64,000 nucleotides of DNA, taken from assembly GCF_009696265.1 (NCBI RefSeq), contig NZ_VUMH01000004.1, positions 1-64,000 on the forward strand, written 5' to 3'. The DNA comes from Desulfovibrio porci. Lineage in GTDB: Bacteria; Desulfobacterota; Desulfovibrionia; Desulfovibrionales; Desulfovibrionaceae. Shown here one piece after another: positions 5,940 through 9,174 of the stretch. The notes below the pieces were generated by a model that saw only the letters and a program-made list of their open reading frames with translations, made no database searches and was not told the DNA's origin. The translations under genes were made by a program, and so were the position numbers. Within the stretch, counting starts at the first letter, position 1. Every line of letters begins with the position of its first letter.

Positions 5940-5969
5940 TTGACACCCCAATAATGATGGGAGTATCAA
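5940..5969 (+). promoter_or_regulatory. Probable promoter of the mgtA leader
   Basis: TTGACA at 5940-5945, an 18-nt spacer and TATCAA at 5964-5969. Transcription would begin about 15-20 nt upstream of the M-box core, which is the right place for a riboswitch promoter. Confidence 0.55.
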
Positions 5970-5989
5970 AATCTCGGAAAATTGAGACC

Positions 5990-6165
5990 GTTTCGGTAGG
6001 TGAGGCTACCACAGGGATACGGGTTACTGCCGCGGAGTAGTGGAGACACTATGAGAAGGCCAACAGTCCATGTCGAAAACAAGGCATGGACTATGTAACT
6101 TCATCGCCCTGTGAAGCTGAAGCTTGGACGATGACGTTGCAGTGCCTCCACAGGTAAGGCTGTTA
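5990..6165 (+). ncRNA. M-box (ykoK leader) Mg2+ riboswitch
   Basis: Several conserved M-box blocks occur in order: GGTAGGTGAGGCTACC at the 5' side, then GGGATACGGGTTACTGCC, then AAGGCCAACAG, and a 3' block with GAAGCTTGGACGATGACGTT and CAGTGCC. These correspond to the GGTGAGGCTCC, GCTGCTGCC and 3' TTGGAtGACGacGTT-CAGTGC segments known from this family. It is followed by an intrinsic terminator and then an Mg2+-transport ATPase gene, the expected target. In known members Mg2+ binding favours termination. Boundaries are approximate, read by eye. Confidence 0.88.
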
Positions 6166-6175
6166 TGGGATATTT

Positions 6176-6216
6176 CCTGTCATCGTTGTACGCGGTGGCA
6201 GGGTTTTTTGTTTTTG
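6176..6216 (+). terminator. Intrinsic terminator, expression platform of the M-box
   Basis: CCTGTCATCG (6176-6185) pairs with CGGTGGCAGG (6193-6202) over ten base pairs, three of them weaker wobble contacts, around a 7-nt loop. A T-rich tail of about 12 bases (6204-6215, one interrupting G) follows. It lies directly downstream of the riboswitch and upstream of mgtA, so it fits transcriptional attenuation by Mg2+. Confidence 0.8.
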
Positions 6217-6289
6217 CGACACGACGGCCCGGCGCCCGCCATGAAACGGCTGTTCAGTTTTCACCGGAAAAACACAACAGGAGGACACA

Positions 6290-6382
6290 ATGGAACCGGA
6301 CAGTAGACATGGCCCACGTTCTGACGCGCCGCCCCGAAGGCGCGTGACGGAAACGAAAACAATTTCAGATCCGCCACCGTAA
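6290..6382 (+). CDS. MgtL-like leader peptide (30 aa) upstream of mgtA
   Basis: A 30-codon frame starts at ATG 6290 behind a strong AGGAGG at 6279-6284 and stops at TAA 6380-6382. It begins MEPD, has an internal APPRRR segment and ends SDPPP before the stop. The Salmonella/E. coli mgtA leader peptide MgtL, from memory, also begins MEPD and contains PRRR. In MgtL the acidic-proline start destabilises translating ribosomes at low Mg2+ and proline codons couple translation to mgtA elongation. Here the peptide lies downstream of the riboswitch terminator, 68 nt before mgtA. The homology is inferred from motif and position; convergent or chance similarity is possible. Terminal PPP would be a ribosome-pausing motif. 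Confidence 0.65.
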   Translation: MEPDSRHGPRSDAPPRRRVTETKTISDPPP

Positions 6383-6450
6383 TTGCGGCTTATCAGTGTA
6401 TGGGCTGTGCTTCTTCGTTTTTCATCAGCAACGAACGGAGGTACAGACCA

Positions 6451-9174
6451 ATGTTTATCTTTGCGACCACCCATGAATCCGCTCAAAATACGCAACTGAA
6501 ATCTTTCCGGCAAACCGCGGCCAACAGCAGGCTCGCGTTTGCCGCCGCCAGCCCGGCGGACGATCTGCTGAAAGAACTCCACAGCGGCCCGCAAGGCCTG
6601 GAAACCTCTCAGGTCGAAGCTTCCCGCGAGCAGTACGGGAACAACAAGATCACCCACGGAAAAAAGCTGTCATTGCCCAAGCGCATTGCCGGAGCTTTTA
6701 TCAACCCGTTCACGGCCATTTTATTCGGCCTGGCCGGGGTCTCGGCCTGCACGGATATTCTGTGGGCCGACCCTGACGACGTCGATCCCACCACTGTCAT
6801 CATCATTATGACCATGGTGATGATTTCCGGCGTGCTGCGTTTCGTCCAGGAGACGCGCAGCGGCAACGCCGCCGAAAACCTCTTGAAAATGATCACCACA
6901 ACCACCTGCGTTCAGCGGCGGGAGTCCGGCGAAAGCGAGATCCCGCTTGAGGACGTTGTCGTGGGCGATATCGTACATCTGGCGGCGGGCGACATGATTC
7001 CCGCTGACATGCGCATCCTCCAGTCCAAAGACCTGTTCATTAGCCAGTCGGCCCTGACCGGCGAGAGCATTGCGGTCGAAAAGATTGCGCAGCCCGTGGG
7101 CAACAGCGGGGACGGCAGCCTGACGGAATGCCCGTGCCTTGCCTTTATGGGCTCAAACGTCATCAGCGGCAGCGCCGCCGGGGTGTGCGTGGCCACCGGC
7201 GATGCCACCATCTTCGGCCAGATGGCGAAAAGCGTCAGCACCAAGCCGGTCCGGACCAGTTTTGAAAAGGGCATCAACCAGGTCTCCTGGGTGCTGATCC
7301 GTTTCATGCTGGTCATGGTTCCCGTCGTGCTGTTCATCAACGGCTTTACCAAGGGCGACTGGGTGGAAGCGACCCTGTTCGCGCTCTCCGTCGCGGTGGG
7401 GCTTACCCCTGAAATGCTGCCCATGATCGTGACCACCTGCCTTGCCAAGGGCGCGGTCAGCATGGCCAGGGAAAAGACCATCATCAAGAATCTGAACTCC
7501 ATCCAGAATCTTGGTTCCATAGATATTCTGTGCACAGACAAGACCGGAACCCTCACGCAGGACAAGGTGGCCCTGCTCTACCATCTCAACATCCACGGGC
7601 AGGAAGACATGCGGGTATTGCGGCATGCCTTTCTGAACAGCTATTATCAGACGGGTCTGAAAAACCTGATGGACCATGCCATCATTGAACGGACGCTGCA
7701 GGAACAGGAAAACGTGCCGGAGCTGCGCGGGCTTTCCGAAAAGTTCCTCAAGGTGGATGAAATACCGTTCGACTTTGAGCGCCGCCGCATGAGTGTTGTG
7801 GTGAAAAACGGCAAAACGCAGATGATCACCAAGGGCGCGGTGGAAGAAATGCTCTCCGTGTGCGGCTTTGCCGAGTATGAGGGCCGGGTTTTGCCGCTGA
7901 CGGATGAGATCAGGGAATATATCCTGAAAAAAGTGAATGATCTCAATGAGGACGGCATGCGGGTCATCGCCGTGGCCCAGAAGACCAATCCCTCTCCGGT
8001 AGGCGCGTTCTCCGTGGCGGACGAGGCCGACATGGTCCTGATGGGCTATCTCGCCTTCCTTGATCCGCCCAAGGAATCCACGCCCAAGGCGCTCAAGGCG
8101 TTGAAGGAACACGGCGTTGCCGTCAAGGTTCTCACCGGGGACAACGAGAAGGTGACGCGTTGCGTCTGCCGCCAGTTGGGCATCCCGGCGGAGCGCATCC
8201 TGTTGGGCTTCGACATTGAAAAGATGACAGATATTGCCCTCAGCGAGGCCGCTGAAACGGTCAGCGTTTTCGCAAAACTGTCGCCGCAGCAGAAAGTTCG
8301 GGTTATCAAGGCGTTGCGGGACAGAGGGCACAGCGTGGGCTACATGGGCGACGGCATTAACGACGCCGCCGCCATGAAAGCCTCGGATGTGGGCATTTCC
8401 GTGGACAGCGCCGTGGATATCGCCAAGGAATCCGCGGATGTCATTTTATTGGAAAAAGACCTGATGGTGCTGGAAAAAGGCATTGCCGAAGGGCGTAAAA
8501 CCTACGCCAACATGATCAAGTATATCAAAATGACGGCCAGCTCCAATTTCGGCAATATGTTTTCGGTGCTGGCGGCAAGCGCGTTTCTGCCGTTTCTGCC
8601 GATGCTGCCCATTCACCTGATTCTGCTGAATCTGATTTATGATCTGAGCTGCACGGCGATTCCGTGGGACAATGTGGACAAGGAATACCTTACTGTGCCG
8701 CGCAAATGGGATCCCTCGTCCATCGGCAAGTTCATGCTGTGGATCGGCCCGACCAGCTCGGTCTTTGACATCACGACCTATCTGCTCATGTACTTTGTCA
8801 TCTGTCCGTCCCTGTGCGGCGGCCTGTTGTTCCACCAGATCAGCGATCCGGCGGTTCAGGCCTATTACATCGCGGTATTTCAGGCAGGCTGGTTTGTGGA
8901 ATCCATGTGGAGCCAGACGCTGGTCATTCATATGATCCGCACCCCCAAACTGCCCTTTATCCAGAGCCGGGCCTCCGCACCGCTGACGCTGCTGACCTTT
9001 GCCGGTATTGCCGTGCTGACCGCCATTCCCTTTACGGCTTTCGGCGTGTCCATCGGCCTTGCCGCTCTGCCGCCCGTCTATTTCGCCTGGCTGGCCCTGA
9101 CCATCCTGCTGTACATGGCCCTGGCCACCTTGTTCAAAAACATCTTTATCAAAAGGTATGGTGAATTACTGTAA
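6451..9174 (+). CDS. mgtA: Magnesium-translocating P-type ATPase MgtA
   Basis: P3B-type ATPase importing Mg2+ across the inner membrane (907 residues, family size about 900). Visible in order: N-terminal cation-ATPase domain, TGES actuator loop near residue 202, first membrane pairs, phosphorylation motif DKTGTLT with the aspartate at residue 363, hinge motif GDGINDAAAMK near 632, and a C-terminal membrane block. The start is ATG 6451 with GGAGGT upstream; an in-frame ATG at 6400 lacks a ribosome site. The gene sits behind an M-box riboswitch and an MgtL-like peptide, which supports the Mg2+ role over Ca2+ or K+ relatives. Confidence 0.95.
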   Translation: MFIFATTHESAQNTQLKSFRQTAANSRLAFAAASPADDLLKELHSGPQGLETSQVEASREQYGNNKITHGKKLSLPKRIAGAFINPFTAILFGLAGVSACTDILWADPDDVDPTTVIIIMTMVMISGVLRFVQETRSGNAAENLLKMITTTTCVQRRESGESEIPLEDVVVGDIVHLAAGDMIPADMRILQSKDLFISQSALTGESIAVEKIAQPVGNSGDGSLTECPCLAFMGSNVISGSAAGVCVATGDATIFGQMAKSVSTKPVRTSFEKGINQVSWVLIRFMLVMVPVVLFINGFTKGDWVEATLFALSVAVGLTPEMLPMIVTTCLAKGAVSMAREKTIIKNLNSIQNLGSIDILCTDKTGTLTQDKVALLYHLNIHGQEDMRVLRHAFLNSYYQTGLKNLMDHAIIERTLQEQENVPELRGLSEKFLKVDEIPFDFERRRMSVVVKNGKTQMITKGAVEEMLSVCGFAEYEGRVLPLTDEIREYILKKVNDLNEDGMRVIAVAQKTNPSPVGAFSVADEADMVLMGYLAFLDPPKESTPKALKALKEHGVAVKVLTGDNEKVTRCVCRQLGIPAERILLGFDIEKMTDIALSEAAETVSVFAKLSPQQKVRVIKALRDRGHSVGYMGDGINDAAAMKASDVGISVDSAVDIAKESADVILLEKDLMVLEKGIAEGRKTYANMIKYIKMTASSNFGNMFSVLAASAFLPFLPMLPIHLILLNLIYDLSCTAIPWDNVDKEYLTVPRKWDPSSIGKFMLWIGPTSSVFDITTYLLMYFVICPSLCGGLLFHQISDPAVQAYYIAVFQAGWFVESMWSQTLVIHMIRTPKLPFIQSRASAPLTLLTFAGIAVLTAIPFTAFGVSIGLAALPPVYFAWLALTILLYMALATLFKNIFIKRYGELL

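Follow-up and report, generated by a model that had tools for sequence, protein, structure and literature searches.

An M-box riboswitch and an acidic-start leader frame in series upstream of mgtA in Desulfovibrio porci: a likely second Mg2+ gate on the mgtA Shine-Dalgarno sequence

The mgtA leader in Desulfovibrio porci

Upstream of mgtA in Desulfovibrio porci lie an M-box riboswitch, the riboswitch's terminator and, behind these, a short open frame that starts with acidic residues (Table 1). The window, by which we mean the whole stretch of 64,000 nucleotides (nt) analysed here, carries all of these features on one strand. We think it likely that the frame is a second Mg2+ gate, placed after the riboswitch and acting on the Shine-Dalgarno sequence of mgtA.

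Table 1. Features of the mgtA leader and gene, with positions in the window
Feature	Position	Strand	Evidence
M-box (ykoK) Mg2+ riboswitch aptamer, RF00380	5985..6142	+	covariance-model match, full length
M-box 3' strand able to pair with the 5' arm of the terminator (putative antiterminator)	6127..6136	+	
Intrinsic terminator of the M-box	6175..6216	+	12-pair stem and T tract
Shine-Dalgarno sequence AGGAGG of the leader frame	6279..6284	+	sequence
Acidic-start leader frame, 30 codons, MEPDSRHGPRSDAPPRRRVTETKTISDPPP	6290..6382	+	open frame; MEPDSR start, same length and no gap in L087 and L088
Segment A, leader codons 7-9 (leader nt 20-26), predicted anti-anti-Shine-Dalgarno	6309..6316	+	pairing with B, co-variation
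Segment B, predicted anti-Shine-Dalgarno, pairs with A or C	6401..6414	+	similar place in relatives
Segment C, Shine-Dalgarno region of mgtA, GGAGGTACAG	6437..6446	+	pairing with B
mgtA, Mg2+-importing P-type ATPase	6451..9174	+	NF011702 and TIGR01524 above cut-off

The M-box had been proposed by an earlier, sequence-only reading of the same DNA. The covariance model recovered it over its full length (model positions 1-169 of 169) with a score of 100.7 bits (E = 3.4e-21; gathering score 44). It was the sole Rfam match at gathering score in the window, and the genome contains one M-box in total. The expression platform is also present. The 3' strand of the aptamer can pair with the 5' arm of the terminator (6127-6136 with 6178-6187; 10 of 10 pairs, two of them G-T) and would provide a ready antiterminator, and the terminator, which that reading had placed at 6176-6216, has a 12-pair stem at 6175-6203 followed by TTTTTTGTTTTTG up to 6216. 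By score, by length and by its expression platform of antiterminator and terminator, the element is an M-box, and it is predicted to bind Mg2+ and to terminate transcription in response. A possible promoter at 5940-5969 (TTGACA, TATCAA) is plausible by eye only and was not listed by a promoter scan. A terminator-like hairpin (CGTGAGGG...CCCTCACG; 5835-5859) lies at the end of the long frame, 2060-5839, that precedes the M-box.

MgtA is a protein of 907 amino acids, scoring 1164 bits with NF011702 and 1146 bits with TIGR01524. Between the terminator and mgtA we found the frame that the sequence-only reading had singled out, with 30 codons, an AGGAGG ahead of it and a MEPD start. Its motifs fared unequally: the MEPDSR start is kept in the two nearest relatives, but PPRRR and DPPP are not, the relatives having VPRRC and VPPR. 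Among the 101 genomes of a first search for relatives with strict filters, an M-box occurred only in the window's genome. A DNA search together with an MgtA search yielded two further genomes of the same genus, G287 and G404, in which M-box, leader frame (MEPDSRYSPNSDFVPRRCVTEGMFMSVPPR and MEPDSRYSPNSDFVPRRCVTEGMSMSVPPR) and mgtA are all present (loci L087 and L088), and whose MgtA proteins are 80-81% identical to that of the window. The frame is not lost among close relatives, since it is kept in the window and in both of these loci, i.e. in all three genomes of the genus in which mgtA was seen to have an M-box ahead of it.

Two other candidates in the leader were rejected. Rfam contains a family for the enterobacterial mgtA leader, which was considered as the second element; only RF00380 was found in the window at gathering score, so membership of that family is not indicated. 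A terminator-like site at 6384-6409 has three G-C pairs and a broken T run, overlaps B, and was taken as chance.

Predicted pairing linking the leader frame to the mgtA Shine-Dalgarno region

Segments A, B and C, which the sequence-only reading had not noted, can form two alternative stems. In the window, 6309-6316 (A) pairs with 6401-6408 of B at 8 of 8 positions, two of them G-T, and 6405-6414 of B pairs with 6437-6446 (C) at 10 of 10, three of them G-T; B lies 37-50 nt upstream of mgtA. Loci for comparison came from named genomes, scanned with MgtA of the window; we kept the best 80 of 573 confirmed matches, i.e. close relatives. L012, L023, L044 and L081 (three with GTG starts) were added by hand to the list of leaders, and L087, L088, L090, L092 and L093 were added for the tests on 61 loci. 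B was picked in each locus by its match to C alone. The number of loci with at least 8 of 10 B:C pairs (52 of 61) is therefore favoured by the choice, and the match to A is not. In 51 of the 61 loci B was found 30-75 nt upstream of the start codon.

Segment A proved to match the B of its own locus better than a B swapped in from another. Over the 61 loci, 274 of 427 positions paired, compared with 222 (standard deviation 8.9) after swapping; none of 20,000 permutations reached the native count. The excess persisted in the 51 loci that remain when the group around L060 (see below) is left out (249 of 357 pairs versus 218; 0 of 20,000) and in 31 dereplicated loci (142 of 217 versus 125; 33 of 20,000). 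Pairing energies gave the same picture, with -645.5 for the native combinations and -542.7 (standard deviation 16.7) for the swapped ones (0 of 20,000; 51 of 61 loci). When the register of A was scanned along the frame, the highest count was at nt 20, both in the 51 loci (249, followed by 217 at nt 1 and at most 191 elsewhere) and in the 31 dereplicated ones (142, with 130 at nt 1). Complete pairing, at seven of seven positions, was seen in 14 of the 61 loci and involved 12 different combinations of A and B, such as GCGGCAC with GTGTCGT, GCAACCC with GGGTTGT and ACGGAAT with GTTCCGT. This co-variation is the strongest evidence that the leader frame and the Shine-Dalgarno sequence of mgtA form one device. 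Searches for Rfam families at the output element, made in 10 loci, returned none.

The loci around L060 (L060-L064, L068 and L074-L077) have no M-box by our profile and carry a leader frame of the MDSDGSPRR type before mgtA. Their B is mostly CTTGCCTC against GGAGGTAAG, the register of A differs (about nt 24-45), and the leader stops often overlap B or the Shine-Dalgarno sequence. In E. coli K-12 (L116:3075-3120), the Shine-Dalgarno sequence of mgtA can be closed by a CTGTACT-type hairpin just upstream, with 10 of 10 pairs.

Spread, composition and origin of the leader frames

The layout of M-box and leader frame is widespread in Bacillota. Among the best 80 of the 573 mgtA loci, 36 have an M-box, 55 have a leader frame on a loose count and 33 have both. 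M-boxes were counted with a sequence profile seeded from 7 Rfam hits; it agreed with Rfam on 10 loci (6 with and 4 without an M-box), a comparison that is independent only for the 4 without. The loose count accepted M[DE] or MGS/MGT/MGN starts behind any Shine-Dalgarno-like motif within 420 nt. A fixed ATG pattern, fitted to these same loci, matched in 50 of the 80 sequences that have 300 or more upstream bases (78 of the mgtA loci, the window and L083), compared with 5 matches in 1.68 Mb of background. Two tests are fairer than this one. In the first, frames of 15-60 amino acids beginning M[DE]P[DE] behind a Shine-Dalgarno sequence were found 8 times in the 1 kb ahead of mgtA and nowhere else on either strand of 895 kb (81 sequences, namely the 80 loci and the window). 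Named isolates with both M-box and leader frame include three Lactococcus, three Lacrimispora, Anaerotignum, Christensenella, Phascolarctobacterium and Trichococcus; the taxon labels of the many termite-gut metagenome-assembled genomes are unsafe. The Trichococcus genome contains a second M-box and leader frame (MDAGSSTDIGPKGRSR) at L123, followed by a 92-amino-acid frame without an MgtA match, which is perhaps a decayed copy.

The second fairer test used a held-out set, taken from 200 genomes belonging to the same family as G473, in which L045 lies. Of these, 23 had an M-box, two of which were already in the earlier set, leaving 21 new loci. The pattern, with length limits of 15-75 instead of 18-66 (every match fell within 18-66), was present in 5 of the 21 (L134, L137, L138, L140 and L144), when fewer than 0.05 were expected from the background rate. 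Three of these frames precede mgtE (Pfam MgtE_N, CBS and MgtE) and lie between it and the M-box (L134, L137 and L138, the last overlapping the mgtE start); by eye, acidic-start frames occupy the same place in L126 and L141.

The first residues of the leaders have a distinct composition. In 48 dereplicated leaders, codon 2 encodes D or E in 43, as GAA, GAC, GAT or GAG. Over residues 2-15, D and E make up 19%, compared with 7% in the rest of the peptide, and V, I, L, M, F and W together 4%, compared with 26%; Ser accounts for 20%, Gly for 13% and Pro for 11%. Ratios of non-synonymous to synonymous change (pN/pS) were 0.10-0.39 in the 10 pairs of five Lacrimispora-type leaders; no selection over the whole frame was seen in the 10 pairs among L062, L063, L068, L074 and L077 (0.48-1.26).

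Several loci have a third module, consisting of an extra acidic leader frame and a second terminator between the M-box and the mgtA-proximal frame (L003, L006, L007, L037, L053 and others; L026 without an M-box; L017 alone). A CCAYCGTTT terminator was found in 14 loci, 13 of which were tested for an upstream complement of its 5' arm; L020 was left out, its match being the M-box's own terminator. The complement was equalled by at most 5 of 200 shuffles in 8 of the 13 loci, and by 7 to 23 in the others. It starts at nt 26-36 of an M-Asp frame in 9 of the 13 (two with TTG starts), coincides with Asn-Asp-Gly codons in L003, L007, L017 and L055, and in L040 falls in a GTG frame without Asp; no such M-Asp frame was seen at the complement in L013, L019 and L058. 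In most of the third-module loci tested, the 5' arm of the terminator is antisense to the codons of the frame from about codon 9 on. The module looks like the same device with a terminator as its output, which would amount to transcription attenuation. The window has no CCAYCGTTT-type terminator of this module.

An M-box lies upstream in 3 of the 24 MgtA loci L086-L109. Other mgtA genes of the genus are 52-63% identical to that of the window and have no M-box. Most of them have another kind of conserved leader frame, either MSSDS... (L090-L093 and L154, the second mgtA of G404) or MDHPPSS... (L096-L100); no leader frame was seen before mgtA in L094 and L095. In the MgtA tree, the window groups with L087 and L088 (support 0.998) inside a 20-member clade (0.983) whose other members come from Bacillota and gut metagenomes, the nearest neighbours being L003 and L007 (0.598); over the best segment, the window's MgtA is 83% identical to that of L003 (Lacrimispora celerecrescens). 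Two other same-genus groups of MgtA are separate from this clade, with support of 1.0 each. Because the window's MgtA nests among Bacillota-type sequences and apart from the other same-genus groups, a transfer of the leader-gene unit into the genus is likely.

A likely second Mg2+ gate and its alternatives

The sequences establish the parts, how they are conserved and the co-variation of A with B. From this arrangement we infer translation of the leader frame, drop-off of its ribosomes, dependence of the drop-off on Mg2+ and a direction of control, as follows. With ample Mg2+, the M-box would sequester its 3' strand and the terminator would halt transcription. On transcripts that escape, the leader would be fully translated, so that A (codons 7-9) is covered and B:C shuts the Shine-Dalgarno sequence of mgtA. 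At low Mg2+, the antiterminator would form and transcription would continue into the leader frame. Ribosomes would then drop off at the acidic codons (E2 and D4, in the region of codons 2-5), A would be left uncovered, and A:B could pair ahead of the transcription of C, allowing mgtA to be translated. This direction of control fits drop-off, because ribosomes leaving at codons 2-5 would free A when B appears.

Several observations weigh against this reading. A:B pairing reaches at least six of seven positions in only 26 of the 61 loci, and a candidate extension of it, GGAAGT at nt 10-15, pairs in many loci but not above the permutations and was rejected. Several loci of the L060 group have leader stops so placed that a ribosome there would itself open the Shine-Dalgarno sequence. 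The loose count left 25 of the 80 loci without a frame, the search pattern was fitted on these same loci, and in the held-out set a pattern frame was present in only 2 of the 5 loci showing mgtA downstream. The dN/dS comparison proposed in the sequence-only reading was run as pN/pS and gave 0.75 and 0.56 for the window's frame against its two relatives, and 0.10 between those relatives; the former values do not point to strong purifying selection, but the comparison spans just 29 codons, with too few changes to prove or disprove coding. Finally, the C-terminal halves of the leaders and their stop positions vary among loci, although this variation also fits a signal that is read in the first leader codons.

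Folding adds to these reservations. In the window, the ribosome-binding site of mgtA is predicted to be closed by B:C with a probability of 0.94 at equilibrium, and its Shine-Dalgarno sequence is 0.05 unpaired whether A is free or covered. A:B co-varies and is a candidate for a stem that would exclude B:C in the manner of Salmonella mgtQ, but A and C have only 4 nt of B in common in the window, and forcing A:B costs 2.9 kcal/mol and opens the Shine-Dalgarno sequence only to 0.27. Among 56 of the 61 loci (5 with long spacing were left out), covering A lowered accessibility by more than 0.1 in only 17 and raised it in 4. In the 24 loci with at least six of seven A:B pairs and the usual spacing, forcing A:B gave a gain of more than 0.2 in 6. 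Before C is transcribed, the predicted probability of A:B is 0.99 in the window and exceeds 0.5 in 17 of these 24 loci. As proof of switching in the window, equilibrium folding was thus negative, and an equilibrium switch is not supported by these models. A switch there would need kinetics, since the Shine-Dalgarno sequence stays closed at equilibrium and even forced A:B opens it little; a kinetic, co-transcriptional switch is possible.

The leader might also act on B:C by stalling ribosomes, or by way of general translation capacity (initiation, ABC-F factors, tRNA), instead of by Mg2+-dependent drop-off. A, at nt 20-26, would lie under the assumed footprint of a ribosome at codons 1-5, the 17 loci in which covering A reduces Shine-Dalgarno access also fit, and acidic codons are reported also to pause ribosomes, a pause relieved by EttA (PMC11282234). 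However, ribosomes stalled on the first codons would shield A and leave mgtA shut off, opposite to what a signal of low Mg2+ requires, and the position of the frames, behind M-boxes and before mgtA or mgtE, is not what such a general signal would suggest. We judge this explanation unlikely.

A second alternative is that leader translation governs Rho-dependent termination before mgtA, as in MgtL, and not the Shine-Dalgarno sequence. The MEPD start is common to the window's frame and to E. coli MgtL, which acts through Rho (PMC11282234), but this mechanism gives no role to the co-varying A:B or to the B:C hairpin on the Shine-Dalgarno sequence, and we regard it as improbable, on an analysis that included no search for Rho sites. 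Of the layered control by M-box and MgtL-like peptide that the sequence-only reading had envisaged, the series order is real, while an output of the MgtL type is not what the sequence points to; the evidence suggests a switch on the Shine-Dalgarno sequence of mgtA, closer to mgtQ than to MgtL.

It is about equally improbable that the M-box is the sole regulator and that the frame arises only incidentally within a conserved RNA element in which A and B pair, the peptide having no role. Co-variation at the nucleotide level and the pN/pS of the window's frame, which is not low, are compatible with this. Yet the frame has a start codon with a Shine-Dalgarno sequence, its acidic, hydrophobic-poor N-terminus extends beyond A, the Lacrimispora-type leaders show low pN/pS, and mgtQ and MgtL provide precedents. 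That the resemblance to MgtL is due to chance and the frame is not regulatory is very unlikely, common as short frames are in the window, because M[DE]P[DE] frames were confined to the neighbourhood of mgtA, the frame is conserved in both relatives, and the held-out loci gave matches.

The preferred reading, a drop-off gate on the Shine-Dalgarno sequence, has its closest counterpart in mgtQ of the Salmonella mgtCBRU operon, a short frame whose early acidic codons (Asp2 and Glu5) were found by experiment to lower mgtQ translation and raise mgtB translation via a stem that frees the ribosome-binding site, the acidic codons causing ribosome drop-off (PMC8092293). Early acidic codons are common to both systems. 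In mgtQ, one of two alternative stems shuts the ribosome-binding site of a Mg2+ transporter gene and the other frees it, and translation of the frame is inversely related to that of its target (PMC8092293). The window would match this, with B:C as the predicted closing stem, A:B as a candidate for the freeing one and the inverse relation as a proposal. The two systems differ in that mgtQ is an 8-codon frame in the mgtC-mgtB intergenic region, whereas the 30-codon frame of the window belongs to the 5' leader of mgtA, follows an M-box and has another sequence. MgtL resembles it in preceding mgtA and in its MEPD start and acidic and proline residues (MEPDS at 6290 in the window; ATGGAACCTGATCCC in E. 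coli). In E. coli, MgtL translation is reported to abort at EPDP at low Mg2+ and to have a Rho-dependent output (PMC11282234); the K-12 frame (L116) has 17 codons and EPDP, unlike the 30 codons and EPDS of the window. By analogy the window's frame would work like mgtQ, and it is not a member of the mgtQ or MgtL classes.

As in typical M-box riboswitches (PMC4072509), the aptamer and intrinsic terminator stand ahead of a Mg2+ transporter gene; what sets the window apart is a second, putatively translation-linked module in the leader. The pe20 Mbox of Mycobacterium tuberculosis likewise combines an M-box and a conserved small frame, unrelated to that of the window, within one leader, but there the M-box is reported to regulate the small frame by means of a translational platform and Rho, with no mgtA, and the peptide is described as specific to mycobacteria (PMC12810186). 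In the literature searched we found no description of an M-box with a downstream acidic leader frame that is coupled to the Shine-Dalgarno sequence of mgtA, though subscription papers and preprints may contain one. The sequence-only reading knew of no case with this exact layout; the layout is no singleton and is widespread in Bacillota. The mgtCBR operon of Salmonella, which serves Mg2+ transport, reportedly has tandem attenuators and two short frames in its leader, as in some of the loci here. According to PMC8092293 their signals are ATP and proline; that account mentions no M-box. Each half of the present arrangement is known singly.

More tentatively, and with slightly less than even confidence, we propose that bacteria in general, and not enterobacteria alone, use ribosome drop-off at acidic leader codons as a modular Mg2+ sensor. 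Leader codons 7-16 would be antisense to the output element, in versions acting on a terminator or on a Shine-Dalgarno sequence; the sensor would be stacked in up to three gates, M-boxes included, stand before mgtA and mgtE, and move with mgtA between phyla. If so, a single transcript in many clostridia, lactococci and some relatives of sulfate reducers would combine in series two Mg2+ sensors of unrelated kinds, one based on the fold of an RNA and the other on how stable the ribosome is while it translates, and MgtL and mgtQ would be members of a wide class rather than enterobacterial curiosities. A simple rule, an acidic start with codons 7-16 antisense to the output element, would find further members. 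Such leaders would also offer a natural setting in which to ask why both sensors are kept, for example because they cover different Mg2+ ranges, or respond to free versus ribosome-bound Mg2+.

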